From: Acholeplasmatales bacterium
GTDB lineage: Bacteria; Bacillota_I; Bacilli_A; Acholeplasmatales; Acholeplasmataceae
NCBI GenBank assembly: GCA_031284745.1
Contig: JAITXJ010000019.1
Span: forward strand, 1 to 50,519
DNA length: 50,519 nt
Direction of reading: 5' to 3'
Below are positions 229 to 29,125 of the stretch, in pieces (position 1 is the first letter of the stretch; each line of letters begins with the position of its first letter). Both the position numbers and the translations under genes were made by a program. The notes under the pieces were generated by a model that was not told the DNA's origin, searched no databases, and saw only the letters and a program-made list of their open reading frames with translations.

Positions 229-885
229 TTAATTCCAGTTAAGAGGAATTTGTGAATTATTATTTCGATATTGAACAGCTTCGACCAATAATATTAGTTG
301 GAAAGTTGGTATAACCGCATTGCTAGCACTAGGATTAAAATAAATCGTGATATAGTGATTGGTAGTATTGCTAGCAGTCACACTATATTGACTTTCCTGT
401 CGAGGAGTTTCAATTTCGGCATCACTTAAGTTAGGGTTTCCACTAACAACTAAAATATTACTAGAAAATTCGAGACTTGTTCCACTAATATTTGTTCCTA
501 AATTTACATTGTTTTGACAAAAACTTAAGTCCCTATTTCCTTTAAATAATATTAAAGCATCATCAGCGATGTTGACCGTCGAAGTTATTTCCGCCACCGC
601 TTTGGTCCAGGCACTCTTATTTCCTAGATTGGATGTTTCAAAACAAATAACCAGCACATCACCCGCACTATATTGATCAAGTGCTGAAATTTCTTGACCA
701 TTAAGCTTATATTTTACTTGAGCATCAATAATAAGGTTCCCAGCTTTGATATCTAAACTATCGCTATGGGAGTCACTAAAAAAAGCATATCCCATGGAGA
801 TTAAACATAAAACAGTAAAACTTAAAATTGATCCCACAAAGTAACTTATCCAAAGTCCTTTTTTCTTTTTCATAATTGATTGCAT
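229..885 (-). CDS. TasA/CalY-like exported protein with SipW-type signal peptide
   Basis: 218 residues. The N-terminus is basic (MKKKK at residues 5-9), then a hydrophobic segment (about residues 12-35) ending in the pattern YAFFSDS, then LDIKAGNLIID. That arrangement is typical of TasA, camelysin and related proteins whose signal peptide is cut by a SipW-type signal peptidase and which may form extracellular fibres or coats. The rest is a beta-rich, Ser/Thr/Asn-rich domain with no catalytic motif. The in-frame codon just before residue 1 is a TGA stop, so translation starts at residue 1 or at Met5; neither has a good ribosome-binding site. The nearest AAGGAG lies at 922-917, inside a leader hairpin. 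No sipW gene is in the window. The family call rests on the signal and post-signal pattern, not on the whole length. Confidence 0.6.
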   Translation of the reverse strand: MQSIMKKKKGLWISYFVGSILSFTVLCLISMGYAFFSDSHSDSLDIKAGNLIIDAQVKYKLNGQEISALDQYSAGDVLVICFETSNLGNKSAWTKAVAEITSTVNIADDALILFKGNRDLSFCQNNVNLGTNISGTSLEFSSNILVVSGNPNLSDAEIETPRQESQYSVTASNTTNHYITIYFNPSASNAVIPTFQLILLVEAVQYRNNNSQIPLNWN

Positions 886-1016
886 TCACTTAAGCTAGTA
901 AGTCTTTGAATGCCGGCTCCTTAAAATTCAACTTCTAGCTAGGACGATGATCAACGATTTAATCATCGATGGTCGATCATTTCCTCGACCATTTTATTCC
1001 TTTTACAATTATATCA
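886..1016 (-). promoter_or_regulatory. Promoter and structured 5' leader of the TasA-like gene
   Basis: On the minus strand an extended -10 TGATATAAT lies at 1016-1008, predicting a start near 1001 and a leader of about 115 nt. The leader holds three hairpins: TGGTCGA/TCGACCA with loop GGAAATGA; CGATGAT/ATCATCG; and a longer stem AGCTAG-AAGT-TGAA pairing with TTCA-ACTT-CTAGCT. The apical loop of the third contains AAGGAG followed by CCGGCATT. I do not recognise a named riboswitch class. The only good Shine-Dalgarno sequence of the transcript lies in that loop, so translational control is plausible but inferred. Confidence 0.5.
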
Positions 1017-1108
1017 TATATGTTTAGATAGATATAATTTACGCTCAAACGTACAAAAGTAATGTATATAAGTCCAAAAGCGTTATTTACACAAAAATAG
1101 TAAATTAG

Positions 1109-1160: not shown

Positions 1161-2612
1161 ATGAAAAAATATGTCATTATTGTCAGTTGCGCACTTGTGC
1201 TCTTCTTAACAATTTGTCTACTACCTGTTGCATTTAGCTTTTTTAGCTCATATAAATTAATCGATATTGCTTATATTACCAAAAGCAACCCCGTTAATGA
1301 GGAAGTTGATGTTTATATCGGCGATGTTCCTCGCATTGATTTTACGCAATATGTTAGTAGTTCCGTCCAAAATCTATCCCACTCTATTCAAGGATACGAC
1401 CCTCAAAATCCTATAATCGGTGAATATACGGTCCATTATTCTGGTCAGGAACAAGGTCATCAATTTTCTAAGGATATTTTATTTACATTTTGGGGTTTCA
1501 CGAAATTTGCTCCGGGAGGGGAACATGTTTTAGGTTTGACTTCCAAGGGTGAAGTTTATGTTTGGGGGAGCAATCAATATTCTCAACTAGGTTTAACTGG
1601 CGTTACTTATGTTAGTACGCCCACCAAGTTAACTAGTCTTCCAAAAATCAAAGATATTGCAGCCACGAATTCGTCTAGTTTTGCTTTAGATGAAAGTGGA
1701 GCCATTTGGAGTTGGGGACGAAATATTGATAATGTTTTGGGTGATAACGGTTCTACTCGCAGCACTCCTCAAACAATTAATTATTCCGTTAGTTTTAAAA
1801 GTTTAGCTGGTGGTGGTTATAATACCATGGGCGCAATCGGCACTGATAATTATCTCTATGCTTGGGGAAATGGGAAAAATGGGGCTTTAGGTAATGGCGT
1901 GAATAAGGAGTCCAATACTGTTACGCGCATTTATACTGGTGGTACTAAAATGGCTCAATATTCTTTTAATGGTGGAATGTTCACTAACCTAAATGATGAA
2001 TTATTCATCTTTGGTTCGAATGACTATGGGGAAATGATGAGTACCAATTACTCTTTACATAATCAGCTTCCCAATAAAGTTACTTTTCTTGGTAATATTA
2101 AAAAACTGGCTGCCGGATATGGGATGCGGATGATTTTGAATACGAACAATAATGTTTGGACTTGGGGTGATTCGCGTTATAATGCGGTTGGTCATAATAT
2201 CTCCAGTGGCGAAAGACCAAATCCCCAACAAATAGCCACGAATGCCAAAGACATCGCTATGAATATTGGTCAAGGAATGGTCTTAAAAAATGATGGTTCG
2301 ATTATTATGTTCGGAGAAAATTTTAGCGGACAAAATGCTTCTGGTAGTACGGCCTATACCTTCTCTAATAGTATTTATAACCCAACATTTTCCACCGACG
2401 CCATCTATTGTTTAAATGAAACCAATCTCTTCTTTTCGAAACATCAGATGTATGGTGTGGGACAAGGTACCTATGGCGTTTTAGCCAATGGCAGTACGGC
2501 TGATCAACTAGCTACTGTGCAATGGGTATTTAATCCTAATCCTAACGCTCCATTTTCTCGAAGAATGATAGCTTTGAAAATGGTCTTGAAAAAAGAAGAA
2601 TATTCTTTATAA
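1161..2612 (+). CDS. Exported RCC1-repeat (beta-propeller) protein
   Basis: 483 residues from the ATG at 1161, which has AAGAGGTG just upstream. An in-frame TTG further 5' (1137) has no ribosome site. An N-terminal signal peptide or membrane anchor (MKKYVIIVSCALVLF) is followed by a short Ig-like region ending near GEYTVHYSG. Then come about seven RCC1/BNR-like blades, recognisable by W-x-W-G-x-N and LGxNG units such as VYVWGSNQYSQLG, IWSWGRN, LYAWGNGKNGALGNG and VWTWGDSRYNAVG. RCC1 propellers are protein-interaction folds, and in exported bacterial proteins the partner is usually unknown. There is no LPxTG or lipobox, so anchoring would be by the uncleaved N-terminal helix, or the protein is secreted. 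It is divergent from the TasA-like gene and may share its surface role. Confidence 0.8.
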   Translation: MKKYVIIVSCALVLFLTICLLPVAFSFFSSYKLIDIAYITKSNPVNEEVDVYIGDVPRIDFTQYVSSSVQNLSHSIQGYDPQNPIIGEYTVHYSGQEQGHQFSKDILFTFWGFTKFAPGGEHVLGLTSKGEVYVWGSNQYSQLGLTGVTYVSTPTKLTSLPKIKDIAATNSSSFALDESGAIWSWGRNIDNVLGDNGSTRSTPQTINYSVSFKSLAGGGYNTMGAIGTDNYLYAWGNGKNGALGNGVNKESNTVTRIYTGGTKMAQYSFNGGMFTNLNDELFIFGSNDYGEMMSTNYSLHNQLPNKVTFLGNIKKLAAGYGMRMILNTNNNVWTWGDSRYNAVGHNISSGERPNPQQIATNAKDIAMNIGQGMVLKNDGSIIMFGENFSGQNASGSTAYTFSNSIYNPTFSTDAIYCLNETNLFFSKHQMYGVGQGTYGVLANGSTADQLATVQWVFNPNPNAPFSRRMIALKMVLKKEEYSL

Positions 2613-5503: not shown

Positions 5504-6193
5504 ATGTTTCACGGAAAAAAATATGTTAACGTTGCTAAACTTGTTGTTCATGATAAGGCTTATGCGCTTAGTGAAGCGGTTGATTTAGTTAAAAAAACTA
5601 GTTATGTAAAATTTGATGCGACTGTTGAAGTAGCCTTCAAATTAAATTTAGATCCGAAAAAAGCTGATCAAAAGTTAAGAGGAGCTTCAGTCTTACCCCA
5701 TGGTACTGGTAAAACCCAAAAAGTTTGTGTTGTGGCCGTTGGTGATAAAGCCAAAGAAGCTAGTGAAGCGGGAGCCGATATCGTTGGTGATGATGAATTA
5801 ATCGCTAAGATTGCTGGCGGTTGGTTTGAATTTGATGTTTTAGTTGCTACTCCTGATATGATGCCAAAACTTTCCAAGCTAGGTAAAATCCTCGGACCAA
5901 AAGGCTTAATGCCTAATCCAAAAACGGGAACCGCTACTATTAATGTTGGTCAAGCCGTTCGTGAACTTCACAATGGTAAAATCTCTTATGATACCGATAA
6001 AGCTGGCAATATTCATGCCCCAGTTGGCCTTGTATCCTTTGGAGTTGAACAATTAAAAGAAAATATCATCTCTTTATATCAACTCTTTATTAAGTTAAAA
6101 CCAACCACCGTCAAGGGTACTTATGTGAAAAATATTACCATTGCTTCGACAATGGGCCCTGGTATTCGGATTAACGAAGAATCACTAAGATAG
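5504..6193 (+). CDS. rplA: 50S ribosomal protein L1
   Basis: 229 residues from the ATG at 5504, which follows the L11 stop by 1 nt and has GGAGG about 10 nt upstream; an in-frame GTG at 5483 is less likely. Recognised by [10 protein letters not shown], the [20 protein letters not shown] segment, [15 protein letters not shown] (the L1 signature) and the C-terminal GPGIRIN. L1 forms the mobile stalk of the large subunit and represses its own operon. A terminator-containing L10 leader follows. Confidence 0.98.
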
Positions 6194-6210
6194 TATTAAT
6201 TAAATATTTC

Positions 6211-6308
6211 CATAGACAGTAGAGATCTTTTAGATGTAAAAATTCTACCGAGGATTAATGAAAATTGCCCTCTTTATTGTCTATAAAAAATAAAGAGGAA
6301 TTTTTTTT
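6211..6308 (+). promoter_or_regulatory. L10 leader (L10/L12 autoregulatory element)
   Basis: ATAGACAG plus GTAGA pairs with TCTACCGAGG, giving the kink-turn-like L10-binding structure known from Bacillota L10 leaders. TGTCTAT at 6278-6284 can close the ATAGACA stem or enter the downstream terminator, so the two folds compete. In the family, L10-L12 bound to the leader favours termination. Placed exactly between rplA and rplJ. Confidence 0.88.
6269..6308 (+). terminator. Attenuator terminator of the L10 leader
   Basis: CCTCTTTATT (6269-6278) pairs perfectly with AATAAAGAGG (6289-6298), followed by eight Ts (6301-6308). The rplJ ribosome-binding site GGAGG begins immediately after the T-run. 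Confidence 0.85.
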
Positions 6309-6319
6309 GGAGGAACGAA

Positions 6320-6802
6320 ATGAAACAAGAATTATTAAACAAAAAACAAAATGATGTAGTTGAGCTAAAAGAACGATTTTCTAAGGCTAAAACCATAATT
6401 GTTTTCGATTATCAGGGTTTAACCGATGAACAAAATAAAGATGTTCGTAAGAAATTACGCTCTCAACATACAGAAATGAAAATCTACAAGAATAATATTG
6501 CCCGCCGAGCGGCCGCTGCTGCCGGTTATGATGAGTTAGTAAGTTCACTTGCTGGCCCTAAGGCAATCGCTATTTCTTATAGTGATCCGGTCGCACCTGC
6601 TAAAGTGTTATTTGAATATGCGAAGACCAATAATAAGGTGCGTTTAACAGCTGGGGTAGTCGAAGGAAAAGTTATTGGTGTTGATTCCATCATTGAACTA
6701 GCCACTCTACCAACTCGAGAAGTATTACTTACGCAACTTGCGGTGGGATTACTTGCTCCATTAACACAATTAGCCCTTGGTTTGAATTTGATAGAAAAAT
6801 AA
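6320..6802 (+). CDS. rplJ: 50S ribosomal protein L10
   Basis: 160 residues. Shows the L10 pattern: an N-terminal basic helix, TIIVFDYQGLTDEQ, LRSQHTEMKIYKNNIARRAA, the GPKAIAISYSDPVAPAKVL block, and a C-terminal helix that carries L12 dimers. L10 anchors the L12 stalk and, with L12, binds its own mRNA leader upstream. GGAGG is 6 nt before the ATG; rplL follows after 18 nt. Confidence 0.97.
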   Translation: MKQELLNKKQNDVVELKERFSKAKTIIVFDYQGLTDEQNKDVRKKLRSQHTEMKIYKNNIARRAAAAAGYDELVSSLAGPKAIAISYSDPVAPAKVLFEYAKTNNKVRLTAGVVEGKVIGVDSIIELATLPTREVLLTQLAVGLLAPLTQLALGLNLIEK

Positions 6803-26948: not shown

Positions 26949-26988
26949 TGATATAATATTCTTGGCACTTATAAAGTTAGAGTGCCAA
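26949..26988 (+). promoter_or_regulatory. clpB promoter with CIRCE-like HrcA operator
   Basis: Extended -10 TGATATAAT (26949-26957), then TTGGCACTT-N9-GAGTGCCAA (26962-26988). The CIRCE consensus is TTAGCACTC-N9-GAGTGCTAA: the 9-9-9 geometry and the GCACT/AGTGC cores match, with compensating G/C changes at the third and seventh positions that keep the arms paired. The predicted start of transcription lies inside the element, so HrcA binding would block initiation. hrcA is not in the window. Confidence 0.88.
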
Positions 26989-27001: not shown

Positions 27002-29125
27002 ATGAATAATAATCAACAGGAAAACTATGAAAACGATCCAAAAATCTTAGAACGTTTTGGTCGCAATTTAAATGAAGAAATAAATAAAGGAAAAATTGAC
27101 CCAGTTATTGGTCGCGATGATGAAATTCGTTCACTAATTAAAGTTCTTTCCCGCAAAACTAAAAATAATCCGGTCTTAATTGGCGAACCAGGAGTTGGTA
27201 AAACCGCGATTGTCGAAGGGTTAGCCCGTCGTATTGTGAGCAAGGATGTCCCATCGGGTTTAATTAGTAAAACAGTTTATGAATTAGATCTGGCTTCTTT
27301 GGTAGCCGGAGCGAAATACCGAGGAGAATTTGAAGAACGTTTAAAATCCGTCTTACAAAAAATAAAAGAATCATCAGGAGAAATTATCTTATTCATTGAT
27401 GAATTACATACCATTGTTGGAACCGGGGCCGCGGAGGGATCTTTGGATGCTTCTAATATGTTAAAGCCCATGCTAGCCCGTGGCGAACTTCATTGTGTAG
27501 GAGCTACCACCATCAATGAATACCGCAAATATATTGAAAAAGATGCGGCCTTGGAACGGCGATTTCAACCTATTTTAGTCAATGAACCAACGGTTGATGA
27601 TACAATCTCGATTTTACGAGGTCTAAAAGACCGTTTTGAAGCCTATCATGGCGTTCAAATCAGCGATGAAGCTTTAATCGCGGCAACTGTGCTTTCCAAT
27701 CGTTATATTACTGATCGTTTTTTACCTGATAAAGCCATCGACTTAATTGATGAAGCCTGTGCTTCTATTCGAATTCAAATTGATTCAATGCCAGTTAGTT
27801 TAGATGAGGTATTGCGAAAGATTATGGCCTTGGAAATTGAAAAAAGTGCCTTGATCAAAGAAGACAATGATTTAAGTAAAAATCGTCTTTTAGTCATTGA
27901 AAAAGAACTCACCAAATTGCGCGTTGAAGAAGCTTCCATTCGTCAAAAATGGAATCGTGATAAAGACTCTTTACATCTTATTAAAACTAAGAAAAATAAG
28001 TTGGAAGAATTACGTTTTGAATTAAATAATGCTTTTAATAAGGGCGATTATAATCGGGCTTCGGAGCTCAACTATGCCCAAATACCCTCATTAGAAAAAG
28101 AAATAAAGCGCTTAAGTAGTGATTATCAGAAAAATTCCTTGGTTAGTGAAGTTGTTGATATTAATACTATTACGGCCGTTATCTCCAAGTGGACATCAAT
28201 TCCCGTATCTAAACTTAATGAAAGTGAAAGTGCTAAATTACTTAATTTAGAAGCCGAATTACAAAAAAGAGTGATCGGCCAAGATTATGCTTTAAGTTTG
28301 GTTAGTGACGCCATAATCCGTCAGAGAAGTGGGGTAAAAAATGATGCCCGACCAATTGGAACATTCTTATTTTTAGGTCCGACTGGGGTCGGAAAAACGG
28401 AGGTCGCTAGATCGCTTGCGGATATTTTATTTTCGGGAACCTCCCATATTATTCGTTTAGATATGAGTGAATATATGGAAGCTTTTAATGTTTCTAAATT
28501 AATAGGCTCCGCTCCTGGTTATGTTGGCTATGAGGATGGTGGTCAGTTAACGGAAGCCGTTCGTCGCCAACCATATTCCATTATCTTATTTGATGAAATT
28601 GAAAAAGCTCACCCTGATGTGTATAATATTTTATTACAAATTTTCGAAGATGGTCGTTTAACAGACTCTCATGGTCGTTTAGTGGACTTTAAAAATACTA
28701 TTATTATTATGACTTCCAATTTAGCCTCGGATATCTTATTATCCACCAAAGAAAATAAAAATCAAGAAGTCTTAAAGGTAGTGGGAAAGACCTTTAAACC
28801 CGAATTAATTAACCGAATTGATGAGATCGTTATTTTTAATCCTTTGAGTTTTAATGACCAAGTTAAAATTGTTGATAAGTTAATCAATGAGTTGACCTTA
28901 AAAAATCAGGAAAATGAACTCTATATTACCTTTGATCAAAGTGTTGCCCGTTATGTGATGAAATATGGCTATGATGTCACCTATGGTGCTCGACCTTTAA
29001 AACGTTTTATTACCAAAAACATCGAAACCTTTATTGCAAAAGCCATTTTACATTCGACTATTCAACCACGAAAACATTATTTAATGTCTTATGATGGCCA
29101 ACTGGTTCTTCAAGAAATTAAATAG
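27002..29125 (+). CDS. clpB: ClpB disaggregase lacking the N-terminal domain
   Basis: 707 residues against about 860 for full ClpB. The protein begins where the first AAA+ module starts ([20 protein letters not shown]). Walker A1 GEPGVGKT (61-68), Walker B1 [10 protein letters not shown], a full-length ClpB-type coiled-coil M domain (about 280-400, including [18 protein letters not shown]), Walker A2 GPTGVGKTE (about 459-467), [12 protein letters not shown] and the C-terminal YGARPLKR are all present. The M-domain length shows ClpB rather than ClpC, and no ClpP-binding IGF loop was seen. Mycoplasma ClpB also lacks the N-domain. AAAGGAG precedes the ATG, and a CIRCE operator controls it. Confidence 0.93.

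Follow-up and report, generated by a model that had tools for sequence, protein, structure and literature searches.

In bistable translational leaders (the platforms of translational riboswitches) two mutually exclusive hairpins with a common arm decide whether the initiation site is accessible. Hairpin-bridged ribosome sites, in which the Shine-Dalgarno (SD) site and the start codon are split, have been described for T4 genes (PMC3014915). According to that source, a hairpin reduces the SD-to-start distance of 22 nt to 5 nt in gene 38 and that of 27 nt to 11 nt in gene 25, and initiation at such split sites loses efficiency when the structure is destabilised (PMC3014915).

In this work we analyzed the leader of a TasA-like gene of an Acholeplasmatales bacterium, which resembles T4 genes 25 and 38 as characterised in that source in that a distant SD site and start codon are joined by an intervening hairpin, here a predicted one (PMC3014915). 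The sequence feature typical of T4 gene 25, a strong SD site located too far upstream with none nearby, was found here, and the effective distance of 11 nt given for gene 25 (PMC3014915) would also be 11 nt in our leader. Unlike the T4 genes as they are presented there, the gene studied here is a chromosomal bacterial one, the looped-out region is longer (32 and 53 nt in two paralogous leaders), a further in-frame ATG lies in the stem and there is a competing upstream hairpin. What appears to be new, judging from sequence, is this bacterial and paralogous split-site geometry combined with a competing hairpin. Like bistable translational leaders, the locus is predicted to contain two exclusive hairpins (H3 and H4) with one common arm, but no aptamer or ligand was recognised for it and no Rfam family matched. 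Like leader-peptide attenuators, it carries a short SD-led frame overlapping the first hairpin; unlike them, it lacks this frame in the paralogue, and no intrinsic terminator was found on the leader's strand. Among the papers listed in literature searches, none dealt with a TasA leader of such kind.

The window, i.e., the whole stretch of 50,519 nucleotides that was analyzed, carries on its minus strand a gene for a TasA/camelysin-like protein (229..885; 218 aa from the first ATG). Its leader occupies positions from about 1002 to 886 of the same strand, upstream of the ORF, and measures about 116 nt, close to the 115 nt estimated in a sequence-only reading of this DNA. A putative promoter, ATGATATAATTGT with the extended -10 element TGATATAAT (1016-1008), was read from the sequence at 1005..1017 on the minus strand, and transcription would start at about 1002. 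Two abutting minus-strand hairpins follow, H1 (992-969; 8 perfect pairs and an 8-nt loop) and H2 (968-945; 10 pairs including one G-U, with a 4-nt loop), and then the imperfect hairpin H3 (940-893), which contains AAGGAG in its loop. The succession of three hairpins announced by the sequence-only reading was thus borne out, with H1 perfect, H2 containing one G-U pair, H3 imperfect, and the leader as a whole folding better than nearly all of its shuffles.

The AAGGAG motif (922-917) is the sole strong SD site of the leader and occurs in it once. It is separated by 31 nt from the first in-frame ATG (885-883) and by 43 nt from the second one (873-871), which opens the sequence MKKKK and is our proposed start; the earlier statement that the only AAGGAG lies in the loop of the third hairpin, 30 nt or more before the possible starts, is therefore correct. 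Exactly 3 nt past AAGGAG begins the predicted hairpin H4 (913-882), a 7-bp stem GCATTCA/TGAATGC that excludes H3. Its 3' arm contains the first ATG, which would thus be paired, and H4 extends beyond that ATG. In addition, the leader holds two short frames. One of them, noticed previously, is opened by an ATT codon 5 nt past AAGGAG and comprises 13 codons (911-870), its TGA (872-870) overlapping the ATG at 873. The other, a 9-codon ATG frame encoding MVEEMIDHR and followed by a stop (992-963), overlaps H1, is preceded at 6 nt by the SD-like AAAAGG (1004-999) and has no counterpart in the paralogue.

The window protein itself matched no family of Pfam or NCBIfam, and it was assigned via a paralogue from the same genome (G000:C7, L035:4521-5189), to which it is 37% identical. 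The paralogue matches the camelysin family PF12389 (E 9e-8; 32.6 bits vs a cut-off of 22.5), while the leader has no Rfam family at gathering score, so that the description of an unclassified leader before a TasA-like gene holds. The gene directly behind the paralogue encodes a signal peptidase of the SipW type, with the only over-cut-off match to TIGR02228 in the genome; such a gene is absent beside the window gene. The window gene is divergent to a gene for an RCC1-repeat protein (1161..2612, plus strand), which is 33% identical over 477 aligned positions to the RCC1 gene divergent to the paralogue. Since both TasA-like genes are divergent to RCC1 genes related in this way, the divergent pair must have been duplicated. 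The longest frames of both TasA-like genes begin with ATG-CAA. An AlphaFold model of the window protein was set aside (mean pLDDT 48), and a profile search of solved structures gave no match.

The leader of the paralogue is mostly different, yet it contains the same elements in the same order: ATGATATAATTGT, AAGGAG, GCATTCAAA, TTAAGT and GAATGCAA, with the same 13 letters of ATGATATAATTGT preceding it and the stem core GCATTC/GAATGC common to both leaders. In each leader AAGGAG is the only strong SD site, at a linear distance from the second ATG of 43 nt (window) and 66 nt (paralogue), and in each exactly 3 nt separate AAGGAG from the 7-bp stem, with a further 8 or 10 nt between the end of the stem and the second ATG. 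With the predicted H4 looped out, which removes 32 nt in the window and 53 nt in the paralogue, the effective distance would be 11 and 13 nt, respectively, the latter a long spacing for an SD site. The spacer of the paralogue is 23 nt longer and accommodates the surplus in a small inner hairpin. Thus, the arms and the looped-out distance differ little between the leaders although the spacer length does, which fits loop-out rather than linear spacing.

In the genome, two sites and no others carry the pattern GCATTCAAA..TTAAGT..GAATGC, both of them at starts of TasA-like genes. Spacer shuffles that kept dinucleotides, 20000 for each leader, produced a bridge of this kind 153 times for the window and 89 times for the paralogue; the criteria for both the pattern and the bridge were chosen post hoc, when the two sequences had already been seen. 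The reversed control pattern had no match in the genome. When the two leaders were compared by generic local alignment, their score of 28 was without significance: 126 of 2000 shuffled pairs and 259 of 1176 real pairs of upstream regions scored at least as high; for the alignment anchored at the start codon the corresponding figure was 5 of 600. Nothing in the paralogue corresponds in sequence to H1 and H2, and the 5' domains of the two leaders have no visible sequence or shape in common.

The use of SD sites is common in this genome: of 195 crude ORF starts, 95 have the SD core motif at working distance, vs 17 of 195 internal ATGs. A search for further hairpin-bridged starts among the same number of crude ORFs (195, in 278 kb of the genome) revealed eight candidates; these include the window and paralogue leaders, the only ones with the shared arms. 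In another of the eight, at the start of the frame L069 1744-3471 (minus strand), inside the end of the preceding frame, AAGGAG is followed by a TTATGCG/CGCATAA hairpin and then by ATG; this is possibly another hairpin-bridged or coupled start.

H3 and H4 are mutually exclusive, because H3 uses, within its 3' arm, the nucleotides that make up the 5' arm of H4. According to folding software, the best energy of the window leader is -34.4 kcal/mol with H3 enforced and -35.2 kcal/mol with H4 enforced, and that of the paralogue leader -33.7 and -32.6 kcal/mol, so the predicted gap is about 1 kcal/mol in each. In the predicted ensemble at 37 C, H4 prevails in the window (0.54 vs 0.23 for H3) and H3 in the paralogue (0.40 vs 0.08 for H4). 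When the 5' arm was shuffled, the pairing of the H3 arms was reached in 199 of 3000 cases for the window and in 16 of 3000 for the paralogue. Both leaders are thus predicted to hold both folds at similar cost, with moderate statistical support. An RNA thermometer was rejected for the window leader, in which the balance of H3 and H4 hardly shifts from 20 to 55 C. The term 'sequestered', used for the ribosome site in the sequence-only reading, needs qualification: the SD site does lie within H3, but this term is too strong because the site is in the loop and unpaired, and the competing H4 had been overlooked.

The whole leader folds at -34.4 kcal/mol vs a shuffle mean of -21.9 (z -3.9; one of 1000 shuffles as low), and none of the 41 ORF starts tested in the window had a lower z. 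This strength is owed mostly to H1 and H2, which together give z -4.9 with none of 1000 shuffles as low. H3 of the window by itself is without significance (z -0.4), because 322 of 1000 shuffles were as low, and isolated H4 shows only mild stability once its composition is allowed for: its energy was reached by 33 of 1000 shuffles for the window and by 98 of 1000 for the paralogue. The 5' domain of the paralogue leader is also paired (z -2.65). No Rfam family reached its gathering score in the leader in searches at gathering and permissive thresholds, and a match to a known family, against which the unclassified status was to be checked, was thus not obtained.

Relatives of the window protein were found in 3 of 41 genomes by a protein search and in 16 of 88 by a profile search, where the strong matches were the two own proteins and one from the same genus, all the remainder having E 1e-5 or worse. 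The only other strong homologue found comes from a same-genus Acholeplasmatales MAG (JAITXV010000114.1), and a scan of genome contigs gave one locus, again in this MAG. The same-genus homologue scores 22.0 bits against PF12389, just under the cut-off of 22.5. In the same genome (L036 4628-7086, minus strand) TasA-like, SipW-like and RCC1-like frames, the latter two judged by eye, are collinear. Given the divergent RCC1 gene in our genome, we conclude that the module has been rearranged. The leader of the same-genus gene is short and plain, with an ordinary SD site AAGAGG near the ATG, and has nothing in common with the window leader.

The pattern GCATTCAAA..TTAAGT..GAATGC was found in none of 159 other genomes of the order, and the search in the 88-genome family set agrees with this. 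A covariance model built from the two sites, on a MAFFT alignment that places a long gap in the loop, matched 18 of 160 genomes when E values up to 0.5 were admitted; no sites but the two source ones fell below 0.04, and the other 17 sites, read by eye, had no GCATTC/GAATGC arms. An earlier MAFFT alignment of longer leaders was misaligned and was dropped. A search of 41 genomes with the whole leader as DNA returned, besides itself, short and mostly AT-rich matches (best E 0.0017) that were taken as chance. As to the conservation of the stems that the sequence-only reading suggested looking for, none is kept in related genomes, and one stem is common to the within-genome paralogue.

A displaced sole SD site, a bridging stem, the common use of SD sites in the genome and the T4 geometry lead us to propose that H4 assembles the ribosome site. 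AAGGAG would stand 43 nt before the true start, presumably ATG 873; H4 would fold out 32 nt and bring the SD site and the start to about 11 nt from each other, so that the 30S subunit could use both. When H3 captures the 5' arm of H4, the bridge would be dissolved and the SD site stranded in a loop, probably the low-translation state. As the predicted energies are nearly equal, the leader appears poised between the two folds, and the balance might be tipped by co-transcriptional folding, by a bound factor or by the upstream H1/H2 domain. We favor this split, hairpin-bridged site (H4, on) competing with H3 (off) tentatively and with a confidence below one half, because the evidence consists of two paralogues in one genome. 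An extended version, in which the competition of H3 and H4 would assemble or dissolve the initiation site rather than mask it, the 5' hairpins would act as a sensor and the two fibre-like genes would be co-controlled, seems unlikely to us.

Several other explanations have to be weighed against the bridging role of H4. If ATG 885, paired in H4, were the true start, H4 would shut translation off, and its unfolding by a factor or by translation would be the on state. In both leaders the stem indeed includes the first ATG in its 3' arm, and ATG-CAA begins both longest frames; however, with H4 open the only strong SD site would stand too far from this ATG, at 31 nt in the window and about 51 nt in the paralogue, and a masking hairpin has no need to begin exactly 3 nt past the SD site. 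We judge such masking to be rather improbable, and similarly give only a limited chance to the view that the leaders have no function, the shared arms being a remnant of the duplication and the hairpins incidental. This view accords with the duplication of the whole divergent pair (RCC1 33% and TasA-like proteins 37% identical), with the insignificant generic alignment and with the lack of any resemblance in the same-genus relative. With the proteins at 33-37% identity, however, leader DNA not under selection would be expected to have diverged beyond recognition; the two leaders nevertheless match in AAGGAG and in both arms, by sequence as well as by position, and H1 plus H2 beat all 1000 shuffles.

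Initiation at ATT 911 or ATG 992, with the gene reached via ATGA termination-reinitiation or attenuation, would turn one of the short frames into a leader peptide. The position of ATT 5 nt past AAGGAG, the overlap of its TGA with ATG 873 and the SD-like AAAAGG 6 nt before the ATG 992 frame speak for it. The coupled ATT-led peptide suggested by the sequence-only reading did not hold up in the paralogue, where the ATT frame ends after 6 codons without reaching the start; moreover, ATT is a rare start codon, the paralogue has no SD-led short ATG frame like MVEEMIDHR, and the leader's strand showed no terminator-like site. A leader peptide of either type is thus doubtful, more so than masking. Least probable of all is a riboswitch-like or operator-like leader sensing a ligand or protein, with H1/H2 as the sensor and H3/H4 as the expression platform. 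The paired 5' domains (z -4.9 for H1+H2, z -2.65 in the paralogue) and the presence in each leader of two downstream folds that exclude each other and differ little in energy would suit such a leader, but the 5' domains lack visible common sequence or shape, Rfam gave no match, and the near-constant balance of H3 and H4 from 20 to 55 C leaves no thermometer in the window.

If the bridging by H4 is true, a chromosomal pair of such sites would point to an ability of bacteria to retain the arrangement when genes are duplicated, and gene finders that rely on SD sites would pick the wrong start (the first ATG) for such genes. Should the competition of H3 and H4 be regulatory, it would represent a switch whose action consists in putting the initiation site together. 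This would also give a first lead on the control of these TasA-like proteins in Acholeplasmatales and a modest, testable case of translation control shaped by RNA in an uncultured bacterium.

Two other sites of the window should be mentioned. An ordinary L10_leader of Rfam (55.3 bits, over gathering) was detected at 6192-6314 on the plus strand, before a frame at 6320. At 26962-26988 on the plus strand, right before an AAGGAG, lies the inverted repeat TTGGCACT / AGTGCCAA, which resembles a CIRCE/HrcA operator by its likeness to the consensus; downstream of it is a 707-aa frame (27002-29125) judged by eye to encode a Clp-type ATPase.
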